Shown here piece by piece: positions 9,862 through 59,975 of a stretch of DNA of 64,000 bases (positions within the stretch are counted from its first letter, which is position 1; each line of letters begins with the position of its first letter). The notes below the pieces were generated by a model. It ran no database searches and was not told where the DNA came from. It was given only the letters and a program-made list of their open reading frames with translations. Origin of the DNA: Pedobacter riviphilus. Its GTDB lineage: Bacteria; Bacteroidota; Bacteroidia; Sphingobacteriales; Sphingobacteriaceae. The DNA lies in NCBI RefSeq assembly GCF_014692875.1, contig NZ_CP061171.1, positions 2,294,001 to 2,358,000 on the forward strand, in the 5' to 3' direction. Position numbers and translations under genes: made by a program.

Positions 9862-11214
9862 ATGGCCAAAAAAGGTAAATCAATCTCCAATCCGTCAAAA
9901 AAGATATTCGTTTTAGATACCTCAGTTATTTTATACGATCATGATGCGATAAATAATTTCCATGAGCACGATGTAGCCATTCCCATTCAGGTTTTAGAAG
10001 AGCTCGATAATTTTAAAAGCGGTAACGATACGCGGAATTTTGAGGCCAGAAGTTTTATCCGCCTTATTGATGAAACTTCAAAACAAAAACTGATCAGCGA
10101 TTGGATTTCGTTGAAAAGTCCAGGATCAGGAAAATTTAAGGTAGTTTTAAATGAAAGCCCACTAACCATAAATGCGGAAGAAGTGTATGGAAAAGGTAAA
10201 ACTGACCATAAGATTTTAAATGCAGCATTAAGTTTAAAAGAAGAATATCCAGATAAAAAAGTCGTACTGGTATCGAAAGACATCTGCCTGCGGTTAAAAG
10301 CAAAAGCTTTGGATTTAAATGCAGAAGATTACGAAACAGGTAAGATTAAAAACGTAGATGAGCTTTATGCTGGGAAGACCGAACTTATAGATTTTCCAAT
10401 CGAGATAATTGAGGAAGTAAAAAAACAGCCTTTTATCGATGCTGGTGAGATCGAATTACCGCCAAAAAACGCTAACCACTTCTATATTTTAAAGAACAAG
10501 AGAAAAACGGCAAACGTATTTTATAACAATAGTTTAAAAACAATTTCTGCGGTATCAACCGATTCGATATTTAAAATAAAACCAAAAAATATTGAACAGG
10601 CATTTGCTATCCACGCGCTTTTAGATCCTGAAATTAAGCTGGTGAGCATACAGGGGAACGCTGGGACAGGCAAAACATTATTGGCTTTGGCAAGCGCATT
10701 AGAACAGCGTAAAAACTTTAGGCAGATTTATGTTACCCGACCGATTGTTTCCCTGAGCAATAAAGACATCGGTTTCCTACCAGGGGATGCAAAATCGAAA
10801 ACCGATCCTTTTATGGCGCCCATTTGGGATAATCTGCGATTTATTAAAGAGCAGTTTATTGGCGATGATAAAATGTCGGAAAAGATTGATGAACTAATTG
10901 TAACCGAAAAAATAGCGATTGCGCCATTGGCTTTTATCCGCGGAAGAACCCTCACCAAAATTTTCTTTATCATTGATGAAGCACAGAATTTAACGCCGCA
11001 TGAGGTGAAAACAATAATTTCGAGAGCAGGTGAGCATACCAAGATTGTTTTTACCGGTGATATTTACCAAATTGACACCCCTTATCTCGACTCAGAAAGT
11101 AACGGTCTTTCGTACCTGATTGAAAATGCAAAGAACCATCCGCTTTATGCGCATATCACCTTGCATAAGGGCGAAAGGAGCGAATTAGCCAATTTGGCCA
11201 ATGAGTTGCTTTAA
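9862..11214 (+). CDS. PIN-PhoH fusion ATPase/ribonuclease (YlaK-like)
   Basis: 450 residues. An N-terminal PIN nuclease domain (about 12-160) opens with FVLDTSVILYDHDA and has further acidic residues at VLEELDNFK and SKDICLRLKA. The C-terminal PhoH domain (about 235-450) has Walker A QGNAGTGKTLLAL and Walker B IIDEAQNLTP. PIN-PhoH proteins combine ATP-dependent RNA unwinding with RNA cleavage. The fusion is also known as PhoH2 and, in some genomes, is paired with an antitoxin-like PhoAT gene. No such partner is visible here, unless the upstream structured RNA is related. The start is the first ATG after the leader region. Confidence 0.92.
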   Translation: MAKKGKSISNPSKKIFVLDTSVILYDHDAINNFHEHDVAIPIQVLEELDNFKSGNDTRNFEARSFIRLIDETSKQKLISDWISLKSPGSGKFKVVLNESPLTINAEEVYGKGKTDHKILNAALSLKEEYPDKKVVLVSKDICLRLKAKALDLNAEDYETGKIKNVDELYAGKTELIDFPIEIIEEVKKQPFIDAGEIELPPKNANHFYILKNKRKTANVFYNNSLKTISAVSTDSIFKIKPKNIEQAFAIHALLDPEIKLVSIQGNAGTGKTLLALASALEQRKNFRQIYVTRPIVSLSNKDIGFLPGDAKSKTDPFMAPIWDNLRFIKEQFIGDDKMSEKIDELIVTEKIAIAPLAFIRGRTLTKIFFIIDEAQNLTPHEVKTIISRAGEHTKIVFTGDIYQIDTPYLDSESNGLSYLIENAKNHPLYAHITLHKGERSELANLANELL

Positions 11215-49731: not shown

Positions 49732-50333
49732 ATGAAAAAGTTAGTTTTATTTGCTGCAGTTCTGATGGTTTCATTATTCAGCATAAATAATGCAAAAGCG
49801 CAGATTAGTTTAAATATCAATATTGGTTCGCAGCCAGTTTGGGGCCAACAGGATACAACCATGTAGATTATTATTATTTCCCGGACATTAATGCCTATTA
49901 TTATGTACCTACTGCACAATACATTTATCCGAATGGAAGACATTGGGTTTGGGTAAGTAGTCTGCCTGCCCAATATAGAAACTTTGATGTATATCGTACT
50001 TATAAAGTGGTGATTAATGAGCCAAAACCTTATTTAAGAAACAATATCTATGTTGCCAGATACAGTAAATATAAAAATTACGGTGGTCGCCAAAGCATTA
50101 TAAGAGATAGCCGTGATACCAAATACTATGTAGTAAAAGGGCATCCAAACTATAATGGGAATAAAACTGTAGTGATTAATAATAAACGCCCTGTACGTAG
50201 GGAGAAAACTGTTGTAAGGGTAAATCAAAATTTAAGACCTGGCCGAAACAATGAACAGAGAAACAATAACAGAGGCGATAATAACCATCCTGAAAGAAAT
50301 AATAATCAAGGCCGCGGTAACGAGCATCATTAA
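49732..50333 (+). pseudogene. Secreted tandem-paralog protein 1, split by a one-base frameshift
   Basis: From ATG 49732 a signal peptide (MKKLVLFAAVLMVSLFSINNAKAQ) is read, then ISLNINIGSQPVWGQQ derails to a stop at 49866. The other frame gives WGPTGYNHVDYYYFPD... and ends at 50333. One extra G in the GGGG run at 49841-49844 joins them as QPVWGPTGYNHV, giving about 200 residues. Compare the next gene (SQPLWGPTGYDHVDYYYLPD). A tail rich in Asn, Arg and His follows RDSRDTKYYVVKGHP. Function is unknown. The defect is probably a sequencing error. Confidence 0.82.
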
Positions 50334-50344
50334 ATATTTAATTG

Positions 50345-50378
50345 TAAAAAAGGAGCTTCAAATGGAGCTCTTTTTTTT
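50345..50378 (+). terminator. Rho-independent terminator
   Basis: A-run, AGGAGCTTC / GGAGCTC stem with imperfect loop, and eight T. It follows the first tandem paralog. Confidence 0.75.
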
Positions 50379-50429
50379 GTGCCCCACTTTTGGCACGTGG
50401 TTTGGCTATAAAAACTAAATGAATTGATT

Positions 50430-50945
50430 ATGAAAAAATTATTTTTAATGGCTGTATTGATGATGGTTTCATTATTCAGCATCCCCGCGAAAGCACAGTT
50501 AAATGTGAATATTAACATCGGTTCGCAGCCGCTTTGGGGACCAACAGGTTATGACCATGTTGATTATTACTATCTCCCTGATATAGAGAGTTATTATTAT
50601 GTTCCGCGAAAACAGTTTGTTTATTTAAACGGAAACGAATGGATTTTTGCTAACTCTTTACCCGCGAGATATGGCAATTATGATTTATATAATGGCTATA
50701 AAGTCGTAATTAATTCACCTAGGCCCTATCTAAATTTCAAAAACGATAAAATAAAATATGCCAAATATAAAGGCAATAAAGGTCAGTTTGTAATTAGAGA
50801 TAGCCGTGATAGCAAATATTATGTTGTAAAAGGACATCCTCATGGCATGCCTCCAGGACAGGCTAAAAAAATTTACGGAGAACAGAATAAGGGAAAAGGT
50901 CATGGAAATGGTAAAGGCCATGGAAATGGTAAAGGAAAGGATTAA
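50430..50945 (+). CDS. Secreted tandem-paralog protein 2
   Basis: 171 residues from ATG 50430 (an in-frame TTG lies at 50424). The signal peptide is MKKLFLMAVLMMVSLFSIPAKAQ. The conserved core (about 26-135) reads NVNINIGSQPLWGPTGYDHVDYYYLPD, YYYVPRKQFVYLNGNEW and RDSRDSKYYVVKGHP. The tail is a repeat of GHGNGKGK. Tyr-rich and basic, probably periplasmic or surface-exposed. The family is a Bacteroidetes lineage without an assigned function that I know of. The gene has its own terminator. Confidence 0.82.
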   Translation: MKKLFLMAVLMMVSLFSIPAKAQLNVNINIGSQPLWGPTGYDHVDYYYLPDIESYYYVPRKQFVYLNGNEWIFANSLPARYGNYDLYNGYKVVINSPRPYLNFKNDKIKYAKYKGNKGQFVIRDSRDSKYYVVKGHPHGMPPGQAKKIYGEQNKGKGHGNGKGHGNGKGKD

Positions 50946-50951
50946 TAAATC

Positions 50952-50980
50952 TAAAAGGAGCATTTGAAGCTCCTTTTTTT
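50952..50980 (+). terminator. Rho-independent terminator
   Basis: AAAAGGAGC and GCTCCTTTTT flank ATTTGAA after the second tandem paralog. Confidence 0.82.
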
Positions 50981-51053
50981 ATATATCTGTTACAATAGAA
51001 GTTTTGGCACAGCGTTTGAATTGTTGAAGTACACACAAATAAAATAGATTATT

Positions 51054-51563
51054 ATGAAAAAGTTATTTATTATCTCCGCGATTTTGGGTATCGTGGCTTT
51101 AACATCTAATCAATCTAACGCTCAAGTAAGTATTAATGTAAATATTGGTGCTCAACCAGCTTGGGTTCCTACAGGTTACGAAAATGTTAATTATTATTAC
51201 CTTCCGGAAGTTCAATCTTATTATTGTGTCCCTCAAAGGCAGTTTGTTTATTTAAGCGGAAACAGGTGGACAAGATCGAGATATTTACCAGCAAGATATA
51301 GAGGTTACGACCTGCATCATGGAAGAAAAATTGTAATGTATGGAAACAGCCCGTACCGCAATTATAACACCCATAGGGTTACCTACGTTAGCCGTAATAA
51401 TTATTACCGTGGCTCTTATGGTGGTAGAGACAGAATGAGATACGATTATCCACGAAATAACTACAGAAACTACAGAGAAGATAATAGGTACCACGATAGG
51501 AATGTGAATGCGAGTTTGTTCTCCAGAGGACACCGAGAAAAACATGGTCATGGTAGACATTAA
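51054..51563 (+). CDS. Secreted tandem-paralog protein 3
   Basis: 169 residues. The signal peptide is MKKLFIISAILGIVALTSNQSNAQ. The conserved core shows VSINVNIGAQPAWVPTGYENVNYYYLPEVQSYYCVPQRQFVYLSGNRW, then diverges into a Tyr/Arg-rich region and a His-rich end (HREKHGHGRH). It is the most divergent of the three tandem copies and carries a Cys in the YYCVP segment where the others have YYYVP. Function is unknown, and the duplicates may bind metal or carbohydrate through the His/Arg-rich tail. Confidence 0.8.
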   Translation: MKKLFIISAILGIVALTSNQSNAQVSINVNIGAQPAWVPTGYENVNYYYLPEVQSYYCVPQRQFVYLSGNRWTRSRYLPARYRGYDLHHGRKIVMYGNSPYRNYNTHRVTYVSRNNYYRGSYGGRDRMRYDYPRNNYRNYREDNRYHDRNVNASLFSRGHREKHGHGRH

Positions 51564-51645: not shown

Positions 51646-54263
51646 TTAGTGATGAGGAATGAAATTTTCTGCTTTTTCCAATACAACTTTTAATCCTGCT
51701 GGGTTTTTACCTCCTGCAGTAGCATAAAAAGGTTGTCCTCCACCACCACCTTGAATCTCCTTACCCAATTCGCGCACAATATTTGAAGCATTTAATCCTT
51801 TTTTCACCAGGTGATCGGAAAGCATTACGGTTATTCCTGGTTTACCATCAATTTCTGTAGTAAAAACCAGAAACAGGTTATCAACCATATCTTTCAAAGA
51901 GAAAGCTAGATTTTTAACAGCCTCGGCACTTTGCAGGTCGATATGTTTAGCAATCAGGTTAATACCATTAATCCCCCTTACATGATGTACGATTTCATGT
52001 TTTAAGGTATTTACACGTTCTATTGTAGACTTCTCAATTTCCTTTTTCAGTTTTGCATTTTCATCCAATAAAGCCTGAACAGACGCAGATAAATCTTTAC
52101 TTCCATTGAGTAATGTTTTTAAATGGCCAAGTTCTTTTCTTTGGTCTAAGAAATATTGCTCAGCTTTATCAGCAGTAATGGCTTCTATGCGGCGAACACC
52201 AGCTGCAACTGCACTCTCAGAAATAATTTTGAACGAGCCTATCTGCCCTGTAGCTTTTACATGTGTACCACCGCAAAGTTCTTTAGAAAAATGATCGTCA
52301 AAGGTAATCATGCGGACAAAATCGCCATATTTTTCGCCAAATAGAGCTGTTACACCGCTTTCAATAGCATCTTGATACGGAACGTTACGTTGTTCCTTTA
52401 ACTTAATATTCTGACGGATTTTCTGATTCACAATGATCTCAATCTGTGCTAATTCTTCATCGGTTACTTTAGCAAAGTGAGAAAAATCGAAACGCAGATA
52501 ATCTGCATTAACCAACGAACCTTTCTGATTAACATGTTTGCCTAAAACCTGTTTAAGGGCTGCATGCAATAAATGTGTTGCAGAGTGGTTATCTTCAGTT
52601 AAAATACGTTTATCTTCATCTACAACAGCCCAAAATTTACCATCTAAATTATCTGGCAGGATATCGGTAAAATGAACAGTTAAGCCATTCTCTTTTTAGT
52701 ATCTGTAATGTCTACCCAAAACTGGCGACTATGGTCTTCCAAACGGCCTGTATCTCCTACCTGGCCACCACTTTCTGCATAGAAAGGTGTTTGGCGTAAA
52801 ACTAGCTGGTATTGTTCTTTGCCTTTGGCTTTTACTTTACGATATTTTAAAATTTCGGTTTCGATTTCTAAGTCATCATAGCCTACAAACTCACTTTGAT
52901 CGTCTGTATTTACTACAATCCAATCACCTGTATCAATAGCTGTTGCGGCACGGCTATCGTCTTTTTGTTTTTTCAAGGCCTGTTCGTAGCCAACCAAATC
53001 AACACTCCAGCCTTTTTCTCTAGCCATTAGCTCCGTTAAATCGATAGGAAAGCCAAAGGTGTCTGATAATTCGAAAGCAAAAGCCCCTTCTACCATATCA
53101 TTAGTGGCCTTGTATTTTTCGAAACGCTGTATTCCTGTTGATAAAGTTCTAAGAAAAGAAACCTCTTCTTCCAGCACCACTTTTTGCACAAAATCCTGTT
53201 GTGAAATCAGTTCATCGAACACACCTTTAAACTGATCGGCCAATAAAGGAACCAATTGATTTAAAAATGGCTCCTTAAAGTTTAAAAACGTATAAGCATA
53301 ACGTACGGCACGGCGTAAAATCCTACGGATTACATAACCTGCTTTATTATTAGAAGGTAATTGACCATCGGCAATAACAAAGGAAATGGCACGGATGTGA
53401 TCGGCCATAACACGCATGGCAATATCGGTTTTCTCGTCGGCACCATATTTAATACCCGATTTTTCTGCAATAAATTGAATCATCGGTTGGAAAACATCGG
53501 TATCATAGTTAGAGGTTTTCTCCTGTAAAACACGTACTAAACGTTCAAAACCCATTCCAGTATCAACGTGTTTAGCAGGTAAGCTTTGCAATGAACCATT
53601 TTTTAAACGGTTAAACTGCATAAATACATTATTCCAGATTTCGATTACCTGCGGATGATCTGCATTTACCAGGGTAGCACCATCAACTAAAGCTTTTTCT
53701 TCATCGGTACGGCAATCTACATGGATTTCAGAACATGGCCCACATGGTCCAGTATCACCCATTTCCCAAAAATTGTCTTTTTTGTTTCCGGGCAAAATAT
53801 GGCTTTCATCAACATATTGTTTCCACAGATCGTAAGCTTCCTGGTCTTTTTCCAGTCCTTCTTTTTCGTCGCCTTCGAAATAGGTAACATATAATTTTTC
53901 TTTCGGGATTTTGTAAACTTCGGTCAGTAATTCCCAACTCCAGGCAATGGCTTCTTTTTTGAAATAATCGCCAAAGCTCCAATTGCCCAACATTTCGAAC
54001 ATGGTGTGGTGGTAAGTATCGATTCCCACCTCTTCCAGGTCGTTATGTTTGCCCGAAACACGTAAACAGCGTTGGGTATCGGCAACACGAGAATATTTTA
54101 TGGCCGCCTCCCCTAAAAACAGATCTTTAAATTGGTTCATGCCCGCATTTGTAAACATTAAAGTTGGGTCGTTTTTAACCACAATGGGTGCGGAAGGAAC
54201 AACGTGATGTTGTTTTGATTCAAAAAAACTAAGGAATGCCTGTCTAATCTCTTTTGCTGTCAT
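51646..54263 (-). pseudogene. alaS: Alanyl-tRNA synthetase, split by a one-base frameshift
   Basis: The N-terminal part (54263 to 52680) ends [16 protein letters not shown]. Reading the other frame gives [17 protein letters not shown], continues across the 52569-52680 gap and ends at 51646. One more A in the five-A run (plus-strand TTTTT at 52693-52697) restores about 872 residues. Motifs are [14 protein letters not shown] near the start, the class II core [13 protein letters not shown] and the editing HxxxH (NHSATHLLHAAL), with GGGGGQPFYATAGGKNP at the C-terminus. AlaS charges tRNA(Ala) and is essential, so an intact gene is expected in the living cell. Convergent with the tandem paralogs. 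Confidence 0.95.
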
Positions 54264-54379: not shown

Positions 54380-54715
54380 ATGCCGTATAAAGAAAGAGAC
54401 ATTAATAAAATGTATTATACCATGGGTGAGGTGACTGAAATGTTTAATGTCAACGCATCGCAGATCCGTTTTTACGAGAAAGAATTCGATATCCTCCAGC
54501 CTAAAAAAAATAAAAAAGGCAACCGCCTTTTTACGCCAGAAGATATTGAAAACTTAAAAATTATTTTCAATCTGGTTGACGAAAAAGGTTTTACATTAAA
54601 AGGGGCTAAAGACTATTTGAAGAACAATAAAACAGGTGTTAAAGAGAATCAAAAGATTATTGATTCATTAGAAAAACTGAAAGGATTTTTAGTAAACCTG
54701 GCAGAAGAACTTTAA
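54380..54715 (+). CDS. MerR-family transcriptional regulator
   Basis: 111 residues. The winged-helix N-terminus reads KMYYTMGEVTEMFNVNASQIRFYEKEFDILQPKKNKKGNRLFTPEDIENLKIIFNLVDEKGFTL, the MerR pattern, and a short dimerisation helix follows (NQKIIDSLEKLKGFLVNLAEEL). No effector domain or metal-binding Cys is present. Divergent from alaS with 116 bp between starts, so it may autoregulate in the shared gap. Its position before the ComEC operon (158-bp gap) is noted, but a link is only a possibility. Confidence 0.88.
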   Translation: MPYKERDINKMYYTMGEVTEMFNVNASQIRFYEKEFDILQPKKNKKGNRLFTPEDIENLKIIFNLVDEKGFTLKGAKDYLKNNKTGVKENQKIIDSLEKLKGFLVNLAEEL

Positions 54716-54873: not shown

Positions 54874-57105
54874 ATGAAAATATGGTGTGCGTTGTTGCCC
54901 GTCCCTTTCCCCTATTATTTATTTCCCAAGAAACATTTGGGTGTCGTTCTATCTGCATTAATTAGTAATTGGTTTCCACCAGTAAATCCCCCTGTAGATG
55001 CGACGTTTCGTAGCCGTAAAACGGTAGTTTCATGGTGTACTGATGTTTACCATAAACTTCTAACTGGAAGCCGTTATGCGTTTAAGATCTTAATTATCGC
55101 CTTTGTGATGATTGGATTTATGGCAAATGCCCAAACCAATGCACAGGAAACAGATATACGCGATATTTTGGAGAGTATAGCCGAAAACCTGCCTGATGAT
55201 TATGATATGACCGAGTTGGTTGATATATTAGAGAAATATCGTAAACATCCGATTAACCTCAATCGTACCTCGGTTGAAGAATTAAAAACTTTGGTTTTCC
55301 TTTCGCCCTTACAGATTGGTAATTTCTTTACACATATAAAGGAAAATGGTCTGCTTGCGGATGTACTGGAATTACAAAGCATTGCTGGCTTTGATATTAA
55401 AACAATTCAAACCCTGCTTCCATTCGTAACGCTAACCAATATCACTGAATATCAGCAGCTCAGTTTTAAAAATCTCGTGCATGCTGGCGAAAATGACCTG
55501 ATGATGCGTTTTGCACAAACTTTACAAAAACAGAGGGGGTATACTGATTTGCCAGGGAACAGGTATTTAGGCTCGCCAGAAAGATTTCAGATGCGCTACC
55601 GATATCAATATAGTTCAATTCTATCGACTGCCATAACTTTAGATAAAGATGCCGGAGAAAAATTTATCGGTAAGCCTTTCGATTTTTATTCAGGAAATAT
55701 CGCGCTATTCAAATTGGGTAAATTAAAAAAATTGGTAGTTGGCGATTATATACTGCAATTTGGCCAGGGCTTAACCTTATGGTCGGGTTTTTCCTATGGT
55801 AAAGGACCTGATGTAACCAGTGTAGCTAAAAAAGATTTAGGTTTAAGGCCTTACAATTCTACTAATGAATATTCCTTTTTTAGAGGCAGCGCTGCAACAG
55901 TTAATTTATTTAAGAATATAGACATTACTCCTTTTGTCTCGTTCCGCAATCTTGATGCTAGTCAAAAGTTAGATTCTGATGGAAACTTAATTCAGTTTAC
56001 AATTAATCAAACTGGGTTGCATAGAACACCTACAGAGATTAAGAATAAAGGTGTTTTGGCACAAAGTGTATTCGGAACTACAGTTCAATATACCAAAAAC
56101 GAATTTGCTGTTGGTGCCATAGCTTATCATACCAATTATAAGAATCGTTTTATTACGCAAACTGCAGCCTACGATCGGTATAGTTTCACAGGTAAATCAT
56201 TAACTAATTTGGGTTTATTTTATAATTATACCTATAATAACATGTACCTCTATGGCGAGGCAGCAAAAGGTTCAGGTGGTGGTTATGCTTACATTAATGG
56301 TGTACTCATTAGTTTGTCGCCAGCCGTTTCTGCGGCCTTAACCTATCGCAATTATGCTAAAGATTATCACAGTTTCTTTAATCAGGCAGTATCCGAATCG
56401 AGCGAAGCTGTAAATGAAAAAGGATTGTATGCGGGTTTAAATGTTAACCCAAATAAACAGTGGGCCTTTTCTTTCTACGGTGATTTTTTTCGGTTCCCCT
56501 GGTTAAAATATCGTGTTGATGAGCCCTCAAAAGGTTATGAAGTTTTAGCCCAAGCTGTTTATACACCAAGCAAAACCTTTAAAATTTTAGTTCGATTTAA
56601 ATCAGAAAACAAACAACAGAATACCGATCTGGATGTTCCTGTAAATTTCTTAGACCATGTAAAAAGAGAAGGTTACCGGGCAGAAGCAAACTGGCTATTG
56701 AATAAGAATTGGCACCTTCAAAACCGGCTAGAGGTTTCTCAATATATGAAAGGAAGTGCAAATAGGGAATTTGGCTATCTCATTTATCAGGATATAGATT
56801 ATTCGCCGATGTTTGCTAAGCTAACGGGCAATGTAAGGTTTGCCTATTTCAATACCCCGAGTTATAACAGCAGGATTTACGCGTATGAAGATGATGTTTT
56901 ATACAGTTTTGCTTTTGGAATGTATAACGGAAAAGGTTTAAGAACCTACCTCAACCTGAGATACAACATAGTTAAAAAACTAAATATTTGGATTCGATAT
57001 GGCTTATTCGTCTATAAAGACGTAGAAACAGTAGGGACTTATCTGGACGAAATTAAGGGTAATAAAAAATCGGAAGTTAAAATTCAAGTGCGCTATCAAT
57101 TTTAA
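54874..57105 (+). CDS. ComEA-like helix-hairpin-helix protein fused to an outer-membrane-type beta-barrel
   Basis: Up to 743 residues from the first ATG. The start is uncertain because residues 1-68 or so look unlike a signal, while YAFKILIIAFVMIGFMANAQ near 70-88 looks like one with no closer ATG. After it, two HhH motifs occur (about 112-178): LNRTSVEELKTLVFLSPLQIGNFFTHIKENGLLADVLELQSIAGFDIKTI, the ComEA pattern. The rest (about 190-743) is strand-rich and ends KVQVRYQF-like (VKIQVRYQF), a barrel-type C-terminal aromatic. comEC begins 3 bp later. I infer a role in DNA uptake at the outer membrane. Confidence 0.8.
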   Translation: MKIWCALLPVPFPYYLFPKKHLGVVLSALISNWFPPVNPPVDATFRSRKTVVSWCTDVYHKLLTGSRYAFKILIIAFVMIGFMANAQTNAQETDIRDILESIAENLPDDYDMTELVDILEKYRKHPINLNRTSVEELKTLVFLSPLQIGNFFTHIKENGLLADVLELQSIAGFDIKTIQTLLPFVTLTNITEYQQLSFKNLVHAGENDLMMRFAQTLQKQRGYTDLPGNRYLGSPERFQMRYRYQYSSILSTAITLDKDAGEKFIGKPFDFYSGNIALFKLGKLKKLVVGDYILQFGQGLTLWSGFSYGKGPDVTSVAKKDLGLRPYNSTNEYSFFRGSAATVNLFKNIDITPFVSFRNLDASQKLDSDGNLIQFTINQTGLHRTPTEIKNKGVLAQSVFGTTVQYTKNEFAVGAIAYHTNYKNRFITQTAAYDRYSFTGKSLTNLGLFYNYTYNNMYLYGEAAKGSGGGYAYINGVLISLSPAVSAALTYRNYAKDYHSFFNQAVSESSEAVNEKGLYAGLNVNPNKQWAFSFYGDFFRFPWLKYRVDEPSKGYEVLAQAVYTPSKTFKILVRFKSENKQQNTDLDVPVNFLDHVKREGYRAEANWLLNKNWHLQNRLEVSQYMKGSANREFGYLIYQDIDYSPMFAKLTGNVRFAYFNTPSYNSRIYAYEDDVLYSFAFGMYNGKGLRTYLNLRYNIVKKLNIWIRYGLFVYKDVETVGTYLDEIKGNKKSEVKIQVRYQF

Positions 57106-57108
57106 ACC

Positions 57109-59196
57109 ATGTTTAAGACCGAATATATTTTTGTCAGGATCCTGTTTCCTTTCATTTTAGGTATCTGTATTTTTTATTTCTTTCCAGCATTAGCATATAT
57201 TAAATGGTTGACTTTAATCCTATCCGTTATTTTACTAAGCATATTATTTTTAAATGTCACCTATAAAAGATTCAATGTATATCGTTACAAAGGTGCTGTT
57301 GGTATTTTAATTTATATACTTTTTTTCAGTCTTGGCGGTTTATTTTGCCTGCTCAATAACGAAAGTTTAAACCAAAATTACTTTGCAAAAGCCGGGTGCG
57401 ATTATTTAAAAGTTTGGGTTAATAATGAACCTCAGCAAAATAGCAATATTGTGCGCTTTAAAGCAAAGGTAGTAACCGGATACAATAAAAATAAGCAAAT
57501 GAGCTTATCGGGCCAAATGCTGCTTACTGTAAAATTAGACAGCCTAAAACCCATCAAACTAAAGTATGGCGACGAAATGATGATCTCGGTAAAATATACC
57601 GAAGTAGAACCTCCATATAATCCTGCAGAATTTGATTTTAAAGCTTGGTTGCGCAGTCAGAATATTTATCACCAGGGATTTATAAATCAGGATCATATCG
57701 TTAGTACCAAAAACAATATAGGTAATCGAGTGATAAAAACGGCTTTAAATATAAGAGAAAAGCAAGTAGCAAAATACAGAACCTTAATTAAAAGTGATGA
57801 AGCTTTTGCCATGGCCTCTACCCTTATTTTAGGCTACCGTGCCAATTTAAGTAAAGAAACTTTATCTGCGTACTCCAATACAGGAACCATTCATGCTTTA
57901 TCGGTGTCAGGTGCGCATGTAGCAATCATCTATGTCGTTTTAGATTTTATGTTCTTCTTTTTGAATAAAAATCGGGCATTAAGGATAATAAAACTACTAA
58001 TCGTCTGTACTTTGATTTGGGGATATGCCTTGCTAACCGGATTATCACCTTCTGTCGTTCGCTCAGCCATAATGATCAGTATTTTAATAACGGCTAAAGT
58101 TTTATCTAAGAAAACAAATAGTTATAATGTCTTGGCCTTTTCAGCATTTTGTCAACTCCTTTACAATCCAATTTTAATCTGGGATGTTGGATTTCAACTC
58201 TCCTACCTGACCGTGTTCGGATTAATTTATCTTCAACCTAAAATTTACAATCTTCTTTACACAGAACATCATTGGATAGATAAAATATGGAGTTTCATAT
58301 CCATGTCTTTAGCGGCACAAATTATCACCTTTCCATTAAGTATTTATTACTTCCATCAATTTCCACTTTATTTCCTTTTTGCGAATCTCTTCATCACCAT
58401 CCCATTAATATTAATGATGTATTCAGGGATTGTAGTATTAATCCCATCATTCCGATTTCTGGCTCCGGTTTTCGAATGGATAATAAATTTTACAAATGCT
58501 AGCTTAAAGTGGATTGCTGATTTACCATATGCCAGCCTTTCATCAATATGGATTAATTTGCCAGAATTTTCCTTATTGAGTCTCTCGTTAGGCTTGTTTA
58601 TTTACGCATTGACAAAATTTAATAAACAACTTTTGTTTTCTTCTTTACTTTTATTTGTTTGTTACCAACTTTTAATTGTACACGATGATCTAAAGATTTT
58701 TAACCAGCGGAAAATCATTTTCTTTTCTCTGAGAAAAAATTACGCAGCGGCATTTATTAATGGAAAAGAAGCTGTTTTAGTTTCAGATTTAAATATTGAA
58801 GATAAAAACTATGCCTTTTCTATTCAACCGGCATTAGCTCAATTACAGTTAAACAAGATATCTATTATTGATTTCAAAAAAGATACCGTTTTAGGGCAGT
58901 TTGTATTCAAGAACAACCAAATTGCCTTTTTTCAGTATAAGATACTATTGATTGATGAAAATCTAAATAATAAAAAGATAAACGGAGATGCCACTTTTTC
59001 GAGTATTTGGTTAAATGGAAATACTAAATTTAACTTAGCCAAAATAGATACTGCTATAAAATATAGAACAGCAATAATAGATGCCACCAATAAAGATTAT
59101 AAAATTCAGATCTTAAAGAAGTTTATGGAGAATAATGATATAGATGTACAGGTTTTAAAGAAAAATAAAGCATATTTGGTGCAACTAACCCAATAA
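57109..59196 (+). CDS. comEC: ComEC/Rec2-family DNA-uptake channel
   Basis: 695 residues. A DUF4131-like N-terminal region precedes the competence domain (about 210-500), with its family segment TGTIHALSVSGAHVAIIYVVLDF (about 260-282) and GLSPSVVRSAIM. Around ten helices are visible. The C-terminal part (about 545-695) is in the place of the usual metallo-beta-lactamase domain but has no HxHxDH motif. ComEC carries single-stranded DNA across the inner membrane in natural transformation. It starts 3 bp after the HhH/beta-barrel gene and ends 1 bp before the next gene, so these are likely one operon. Confidence 0.9.
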   Translation: MFKTEYIFVRILFPFILGICIFYFFPALAYIKWLTLILSVILLSILFLNVTYKRFNVYRYKGAVGILIYILFFSLGGLFCLLNNESLNQNYFAKAGCDYLKVWVNNEPQQNSNIVRFKAKVVTGYNKNKQMSLSGQMLLTVKLDSLKPIKLKYGDEMMISVKYTEVEPPYNPAEFDFKAWLRSQNIYHQGFINQDHIVSTKNNIGNRVIKTALNIREKQVAKYRTLIKSDEAFAMASTLILGYRANLSKETLSAYSNTGTIHALSVSGAHVAIIYVVLDFMFFFLNKNRALRIIKLLIVCTLIWGYALLTGLSPSVVRSAIMISILITAKVLSKKTNSYNVLAFSAFCQLLYNPILIWDVGFQLSYLTVFGLIYLQPKIYNLLYTEHHWIDKIWSFISMSLAAQIITFPLSIYYFHQFPLYFLFANLFITIPLILMMYSGIVVLIPSFRFLAPVFEWIINFTNASLKWIADLPYASLSSIWINLPEFSLLSLSLGLFIYALTKFNKQLLFSSLLLFVCYQLLIVHDDLKIFNQRKIIFFSLRKNYAAAFINGKEAVLVSDLNIEDKNYAFSIQPALAQLQLNKISIIDFKKDTVLGQFVFKNNQIAFFQYKILLIDENLNNKKINGDATFSSIWLNGNTKFNLAKIDTAIKYRTAIIDATNKDYKIQILKKFMENNDIDVQVLKKNKAYLVQLTQ

Positions 59197-59197
59197 C

Positions 59198-59975
59198 ATG
59201 GAAAATCTGGTTTTATATCAGGTTGCTGAACGAATAGCAACGATAACTATTAATAGGCCCGAAAAGAGAAATGCGCTAAACCCTCAACTTATTGCCGAAT
59301 TAACCTCCGCATTTATAAAAGCATCAGAAGATAGCCTGGTAAAAGTGGTTATATTAAATGCAAATGGTGATGCTTTTAGTGCTGGTGCCGATTTAGCATA
59401 TCTTCAGCAATTACAGCACAATACATTTGAAGAAAACGTAGCCGATTCTAATCATTTAAGAAAACTATTTACAACCATTTATTATTTACCAAAGGTGGTT
59501 ATTGCCCAAGTAGAAGGTCATGCCATTGCGGGTGGCTTTGGTTTAGCAACCATATGTGATATTGTTTTTGCTACCCCAGAAAGTAATTTTGGTTATACTG
59601 AAGTAAAAATAGGTTTTGTACCTGCAATAGTTTCTTGTTTTTTTAAAGCAAAAGGTGAGCGAATCCATAACCAAGGAAATTTTACTAACAGGCAAAACTT
59701 TCTCTGCCGAGCAGGCATTGAAATATAATTTGATAAATTTTGTAACAAATTCATCCGAAATTCATCAAAAAACAAGAGAATTTGCATTAAGTTTGTGTAC
59801 AGAAAGTTCGGGCAATTCATTAATGATTACCAAACAGCTGATTACCCAAACTGTTAACCCGAACTTAGAAAAGAGTTTGGAAACCGCGGTACAGATCAAT
59901 GCCATGGTAAGAGAAAGTGAAGATTTTAAAAAAGGAATTTCTTCGTTTTTGAAAAAAGAAAAAATTAATTGGTAA
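59198..59975 (+). pseudogene. Enoyl-CoA hydratase/isomerase, split by a one-base frameshift
   Basis: Crotonase fold: NRPEKRNALNPQL, GDAFSAGADLAYLQQL and AIAGGFGLATICDIVFATPESNFGYTEVKIGFVPAIVS contain the oxyanion-hole elements and the catalytic Glu of the E-x-K region. After VSCFF the frame fails and ends at 59728. Removing one T from the seven-T run at 59638-59644 restores SCFLKQKVSESITKEILLTGKTFSAEQALKYNLINFV to 59975, a normal 258-residue enzyme. Methylglutaconyl-CoA hydratase is a possible subgroup. It lies 1 bp after comEC. The sole insertion-type defect of the six. Confidence 0.87.

Follow-up and report, generated by a model that had tools for sequence, protein, structure and literature searches.

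In the genome of Pedobacter riviphilus, a window of 64,000 nucleotides (NCBI RefSeq contig NZ_CP061171.1, positions 2,294,001 to 2,358,000 of the forward strand; positions below are those of the window) holds a gene in which a ComEA-like helix-hairpin-helix (HhH) domain is joined to a predicted 24-strand outer-membrane barrel, directly ahead of comEC. The HhH-barrel protein is, on balance, probably an outer-membrane part of the ComEC-dependent route by which Bacteroidota take up DNA. An outer-membrane step of DNA uptake is the simplest account of its linkage to comEC in one group of loci, its joint absence with ComEC, its alternation with a barrel type required for transformation in Riemerella, and its independence of the type IX secretion system (T9SS).

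The HhH-barrel open reading frame (ORF, 743 amino acids) ends 3 bp before the comEC ORF (695 amino acids) on the same + strand, and the fusion of a ComEA-like HhH domain to a barrel-type protein at this distance from comEC, claimed in a sequence-only reading of the window, was confirmed by the ORFs, by matches to PF12836 and PF03772 and by the structure model. In comEC, PF03772 (E 1.5e-54, 185.6 bits) and DUF4131 (92.7 bits) both score above cut-off, while the full ComEC/Rec2 model TIGR00361 reaches 107.8 bits, below its cut-off of 190. This 'DC' domain profile is given as the main ComEC type of Bacteroidetes in the available text of one survey (PMC6299819). The HhH domain of the barrel protein matches PF12836 at E 9e-5 and 22.9 bits when the single protein is searched, under the Pfam cut-off of 27; the search of the whole genome gave 27.9 bits, above cut-off. 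Searched against solved structures, a profile built from 78 members of the family matched the HhH stretch of EEPD1 (9yi2, E 3.5e-6) and ComEA (8dss, E 7e-5), the comEA model TIGR01259 gave 15.4 bits against a cut-off of 152.35, and models of GspK matched the domain weakly.

The outer-membrane-type barrel of the same reading was borne out by structure prediction. The AlphaFold model has a predicted local distance difference test score (pLDDT) of 86.7 and a predicted template modelling score (pTM) of 0.85, the model of a distant member from Hymenobacter (P0121) has values of 84.6 and 0.81, and both contain 24 long strands, counted from DSSP with the short strands of long loops excluded. As modelled, the protein shows the closed antiparallel barrel (closure being judged from alignments to ushers rather than from coordinates), the signal peptide and the C-terminal aromatic residue of outer-membrane beta-barrels: a signal-peptide-like N-terminus is visible by eye in relatives, and the last residue, F665, is conserved in at least 90% of a 78-row alignment of close members (A4). 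Foldseek matches of the barrel model are generic barrels. A rough estimate of charge at lumen-facing strand positions (26 K/R against 17 D/E) was not used.

Linkage to comEC was examined in 80 Sphingobacteriaceae-type loci, the best kept by the scan and nearly all from Sphingobacteriaceae by title. In 77 of these, comEC lies 3' of the barrel gene on the same strand, the estimated gap being at most 150 nt for 76 of them; the three loci that lack comEC there belong to Parapedobacter. Where the sequence extends more than 9 kb to each side (65 loci), the most persistent neighbour is comEC (62), followed by the genes for enoyl-CoA hydratase (ech, 49), a MerR-family regulator (merR, 43) and AlaS (alaS, 39).

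The sequence-only reading had also placed the protein in a transformation system that lacks a classical ComEA. This was wrong: the same genome encodes a separate protein of 299 amino acids that has three HhH units and, at its N-terminus, a hydrophobic segment resembling a membrane anchor, and a relative of it is present in 104 of 105 genomes of a class sample. In this free ComEA-like protein, GIG is found in the middle HhH unit only, and the charges of the units are +3, -1 and +6. Its presence removes the premise of a ComEA-less system, and the barrel as a stand-in for an absent ComEA was ruled out on this ground.

Distribution was followed in a sample of 392 Bacteroidota genomes, in which families and genera carry f and g numbers and f1 was taken as the kin of Pedobacter, f3 as that of Chryseobacterium. 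The barrel family was matched in 289 of the 392 at E up to 1e-3, counts that include the weak match of G115 (1e-4; one of the nine class-sample genomes with both barrels) and the interrupted copy of G416. The barrel set against it is that of Riemerella anatipestifer, RA0C_RS04915. According to the available text of the Riemerella report, markerless deletion of RS04915 or of its neighbour RS04920 (DUF5689) brings transformation below detection, as do transposon insertions in comEC or in the three-HhH gene RS02645, and the transposon screen yielded essential transformation proteins without homology to well-characterised machinery (PMC8459023). Membership of the RS04915-like type was assigned by domains, DUF5689 adjacency and the names of Chryseobacterium relatives rather than by the Riemerella sequence itself. 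Across the phylum sample, 170 of 392 genomes match at 1e-10; matches weaker than E 1e-60 were dropped as generic barrels, leaving 65 class members under 1e-60. In family f2 (112 genomes, 86 genera) there were 52 matches, with G447, G469 and G484 dropped as weak, although G484, with a match located at the end of a contig and a positive genus-mate (G409), may be a true carrier counted as having neither barrel. No homology between RS04915-like barrels (5 rows) and the HhH-barrel (47 rows) was detectable by hhalign (probability 2.2, 27 columns).

Within the class sample, 32 genomes carry the HhH-barrel only, 56 the RS04915 type only, 9 both and 8 neither. Without f3 and f4, the sampled genomes of which lack the HhH-barrel, this exclusion is not significant (p 0.14), and class-wide exclusion was dropped as evidence by itself since these two large clades carry it. 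As the class-level pattern rests on f3 and f4 and f2 is mixed, f2 was tested alone. Seven of the 112 f2 genomes, from four genera, are missing ComEC, and none of the seven carries either barrel. Among the 105 that bear ComEC, 44 have only the HhH-barrel, 46 only an RS04915-like barrel, 3 both and 12 neither (odds ratio 0.018), and at least one of the two barrels is present in 93. The co-occurrence with ComEC that an uptake role would predict therefore held where it was checked, the HhH-barrel being carried by 47 of the 105 ComEC-bearing genomes of f2 and by 0 of 7 without ComEC. If every genome is counted as an independent case, the tie of the barrels to ComEC has a Fisher p of 1.4e-6; when each genus was reduced to a single genome (200 draws, means rounded), the p for the tie was about 6e-4 and that for the exclusion 4e-11.

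Several sets of observations weigh against an uptake role, and the first of these concerns the HhH domain. An HhH pair with glycine-rich (GxG) hairpins is the pattern that contacts the DNA backbone. In the barrel protein, GxG hairpins occur in 0 of the 78 rows of A4 and in 1 of 24 rows of a broader alignment (A1), and among 46 diverse members they occur in hairpin 1 of none and hairpin 2 of five, with eight rows aligning badly there. The mean net charge of the domain is -1.4 (A4) and -2.2 (A1). As described in the available text of a structural account, HhH domains contact DNA chiefly by way of backbone nitrogens, and in ComEA lysines assist (PMC9747964). The degenerate hairpins and the negative charge together make DNA binding by this domain doubtful, and with it the claim that the domain would bind duplex DNA; as a normal DNA binder it was rejected on these sequence features, and it is expected to bind DNA weakly or not at all, or to act in protein-protein contacts. 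In addition, among the openly licensed papers of PubMed Central, to which the search was confined, no transformation data turned up for any carrier of the barrel. Nor was a description of the HhH-barrel protein found there, and databases name the family 'helix-hairpin-helix domain-containing protein' or 'ComEA family DNA-binding protein'.

The second set concerns the neighbourhood. Outside the Sphingobacteriaceae type, comEC was found at 0 of 46 loci (40 from 28 families and 6 of f18, with 12-20 kb fetched), and the same profile detects comEC at the known comEC loci of f2, f8, f9 and f10. The coupling to comEC noted at the outset is thus conserved among Sphingobacteriaceae-type loci and does not extend across the phylum. 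In 29 of the 40 other loci, a PorV/Q-like gene lies directly upstream (a family call made with NCBIfam on a few members, all below cut-off), and a divergent porD lies nearby in 19 of the 40 (the single member tested scored 219 bits, cut-off 170). In f2, a SusC-like gene, recognised by eye, stands 3' of the HhH-barrel gene in six of eight loci (L117-L120, L197 and L202); no SusC-like gene follows it in L195 and L193.

The PorV/Q-like and porD neighbours would suit a general outer-membrane transport or assembly part that works with a PorV/PorQ-like partner in the export of protein, lipoprotein or glycan, in which the HhH would be a GspK-like protein-protein module and comEC an incidental neighbour in one group. 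The lack of GxG hairpins and the weak GspK matches agree with such a role, as does the PorV/Q-like gene kept in 52 of the 80 Sphingobacteriaceae-type loci. In the other 28, however, the barrel and comEC remain without it, and it was likewise not found in the genome of P. riviphilus; furthermore, an export role leaves both the joint absence with ComEC and the alternation with the RS04915 type unexplained, and is considered rather unlikely. The same neighbours hint at a part of the T9SS, a candidate that was rejected because its translocon SprA does not track the barrel. SprA was found in 319 of the 392 genomes, none of them among the 67 barrel carriers of f18, whereas f3 and f4 have SprA without the HhH-barrel; membership of the T9SS is therefore not supported, and an export role meets the same objection.

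The porD-like gene stands divergent from the PorV/Q-like and HhH-barrel genes in L131, L133-L140, L143-L145, L147-L149 and L151-L154. The porD-bearing loci belong to many families outside the class Bacteroidia, and some barrel carriers in the phylum lack SprA. PorD is a binding partner of the extended T9SS translocon, but Flavobacterium johnsoniae without PorD showed no detectable change in T9SS activity, as far as the available text of that study states (PMC10994853).

A further alternative keeps the protein in DNA uptake and denies that it is the pore: it would be a periplasm-facing docking or gating protein that connects ComEA and ComEC to another outer-membrane channel, such as the PorV/Q-like protein, a pilus secretin or a SusC-type receptor. 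The f2 co-occurrence data fit this arrangement equally, a PorV/Q-like or SusC-like neighbour is common, and the long conserved loop between strands 5 and 6 could possibly plug the lumen. A docking function is nevertheless improbable, as 24 strands, the size of pilus ushers, which pass folded subunits, exceed what a docking protein needs, and the PorV/Q-like partner is dispensable.

The third set of opposing observations concerns the tree and the genomes with neither barrel. In a quick tree of ComEC domains from 100 of the 105 f2 genomes, with 43 of 97 inner branches open, the barrel types are clumped and branch support is poor; the best topology implies at least 8 switches between barrel states and the starred branches force only 3 to 5 changes. 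This clumping and the few forced changes mean that fewer independent events lie behind the p values given above than these suggest. With 2 pairs on supported branches, a sign test on independent pairs was underpowered and not significant. Twelve of the 105 ComEC-bearing f2 genomes have neither barrel, as do 5 of the 12 genomes of f1, which have ComEC and all belong to genus g3, where 5 of 5 sampled genomes keep both ComEC and ComEA. Such ComEC bearers may have a third solution or may have lost uptake.

Clumped states, few forced changes and a class-level exclusion that fades without f3 and f4 are also what would be seen if the barrels alternate merely because lineages inherited different outer-membrane proteins of unrelated function. 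Inheritance of this kind is, however, very unlikely to be the whole explanation. The types alternate from genus to genus inside one family, the carriers of both (G091, G394 and G459) stand among single-type neighbours, and both barrels are missing from every ComEC-less genome in all four genera. In one starred clade, G394 (both), G470 (HhH-barrel) and G483/G269 (RS04915 type) lie side by side, which looks like barrel replacement in progress.

If the HhH-barrel protein does serve uptake, double-stranded DNA would enter the periplasm through the 24-strand barrel, with passage through the lumen, and the N-terminal HhH domain on the periplasmic side would hand it over to the three-HhH ComEA-like protein, either directly or via protein contact, so that the domain may touch ComEA or DNA; a PorV/Q-like partner may have a part in this where present. 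ComEC would then carry one strand across the inner membrane. The outer-membrane step would, in other lineages, fall to the non-homologous RA0C_RS04915-type barrel and its DUF5689 partner, and bacteria carrying the HhH-barrel may be able to transform. More broadly, and only tentatively, Bacteroidota may import transforming DNA via single-chain giant barrels rather than a pilus secretin, with two non-homologous types (CarboxypepD_reg/TonB-plug and 24-strand HhH-barrel) that interchange, the HhH type spanning several classes and feeding ComEA and ComEC. If this holds, two unrelated barrels do one job and their mechanism can be compared; if the HhH-barrel is such a second solution, this widely annotated family offers a gene to knock out directly, and its presence would mark the 289 matching genomes as potentially competent.

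The start of the 743-aa ORF has a history of its own. Residues 1 to about 66 are not family sequence, and many relatives start 67-78 residues later and are 676 or 665 aa long, although the closest ones are often 743 aa. The ORF start ATGAAAATATGG, together with the DNA preceding it, corresponds to the beginning of a PorV/Q-like gene found directly 5' of the barrel gene in other Pedobacter; over the relic stretch, the start ATGAARATATGG is identical to, and the upstream DNA similar to, that gene. Some close relatives have stop codons within the relic stretch and an ATG further downstream. A search with one Pedobacter PorV/Q-like protein as query found no match in the P. riviphilus genome. Given the shared start and upstream DNA and the missing gene, the first part of the ORF is most simply read as a remnant of a deleted PorV/Q-like partner, probably now in frame, and the 743-aa start was ruled out as the ancestral one by the later starts of relatives and the PorV/Q-like origin of the upstream part. 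In Pedobacter psychrodurus (L037, about 9900-10040), the barrel protein follows immediately on the start and signal peptide of the lost PorV/Q-like gene (MKIWYALLLVFFPYSLLAQ...), which amounts to a signal-peptide swap in nature.

One f2 genome, G416, has in-frame stops both in comEC (L192, C1:239940-240704) and in the HhH-barrel gene (L193, C1:833113-834774), about 590 kb apart, and the neighbouring ORFs look intact; the interruption of both genes together counts in favour of the uptake role. Over the matched stretch, each in one frame, all stops are TGA (3/3 in comEC, 12/12 in the barrel gene), TAA and TAG being absent, and most of these TGA codons occupy positions of hydrophobic or aromatic residues. 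The TGA share expected under neutral decay is about 17-28%, which gives P 5e-10 to 4e-8 for the barrel and 0.02 for comEC. No further TGA-interrupted gene was found in 400 kb of the same contig (the same screen with TAA gave 2, with TAG 0), and no UCA tRNA was among the 3 tRNAs there. Joint decay does not account for stops that are TGA only, and recoding confined to comEC and the barrel gene is possible.

Table 1. Features of the HhH-barrel and comEC locus, in window positions.
Feature	Positions	Strand	Basis
MerR-family regulator, upstream neighbour	54380..54715	+	kept in 43/65 long loci
HhH-barrel ORF, 743 codons	54874..57105	+	ORF call; PF12836 match; homologues
Probable relic: start and signal-peptide codons of lost PorV/Q-like upstream gene, plus spacer	54874..55071	+	similarity to other Pedobacter
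Conserved family part, 665 aa, starting inside signal peptide	55108..57105	+	homologues, alignment
HhH (HHH_3) domain, ComEA-like, hairpins degenerate	55243..55431	+	PF12836 residues 124-186; profile match to 8dss
Predicted 24-strand outer-membrane barrel	55489..57099	+	AlphaFold model
Long, highly conserved loop between strands 5 and 6 (GQGL...GKG...RPY)	55759..55878	+	alignment, DSSP
comEC (DUF4131 + Competence; no metallo-beta-lactamase among Pfam matches)	57109..59196	+	Pfam

The barrel-comEC pair is flanked by alaS (51646-54263) and the enoyl-CoA hydratase gene (59198-59975), each of which appears as two ORFs in different frames, from either sequencing error or a real frameshift. At 49839-51563, the window also encodes three tandem paralogous small proteins of 164, 173 and 169 aa, which share a VPTGY/GPTGY motif and have basic tails rich in glycine or asparagine; a signal peptide is visible in two of them.

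Among known systems, the FimD/PapC chaperone-usher pores are similar in fold alone and of the same size class, with 24 strands; the usher family is absent among Pfam matches of the barrel protein up to E 1, and pilus genes were not searched for. The likeness to ComEA of B. subtilis and V. cholerae lies in an HhH recognisable by profile, as 8dss illustrates, but ComEA is small and anchored or free in the periplasm, whereas the present protein joins a single degenerate HhH domain to a barrel. In type IV pilus systems, the PilQ secretin would serve for the same step, bringing DNA through the outer membrane; secretins form multimers and are not related to the HhH-barrel.

RS04915-like barrels, unlike the HhH-barrel, have a CarboxypepD_reg domain with a weak TonB-plug match and no HhH. 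In genomes of f4, of the Chryseobacterium type and of f2, they form a cassette with a DUF5689 protein (checked in all loci but L196) and an endonuclease/exonuclease/phosphatase-family gene. This nuclease-like gene is divergent and adjoins the barrel gene in 5 of 5 loci (L177, L178, L179, L194 and L196), being assigned to Exo_endo_phos_3 by Pfam in L177 and L194 and by eye in the other three, and it is a candidate for the nuclease step of Riemerella-type transformation. RA0C_RS02645 of R. anatipestifer has three HhH domains, like the 299-aa protein of P. riviphilus, as given in the available text (PMC8459023). Of the Riemerella set (RA0C_RS04915, RS04920, RS02645 and ComEC), in which a large predicted outer-membrane barrel is needed for transformation, ComEC and the three-HhH ComEA-like protein are thus also present here.

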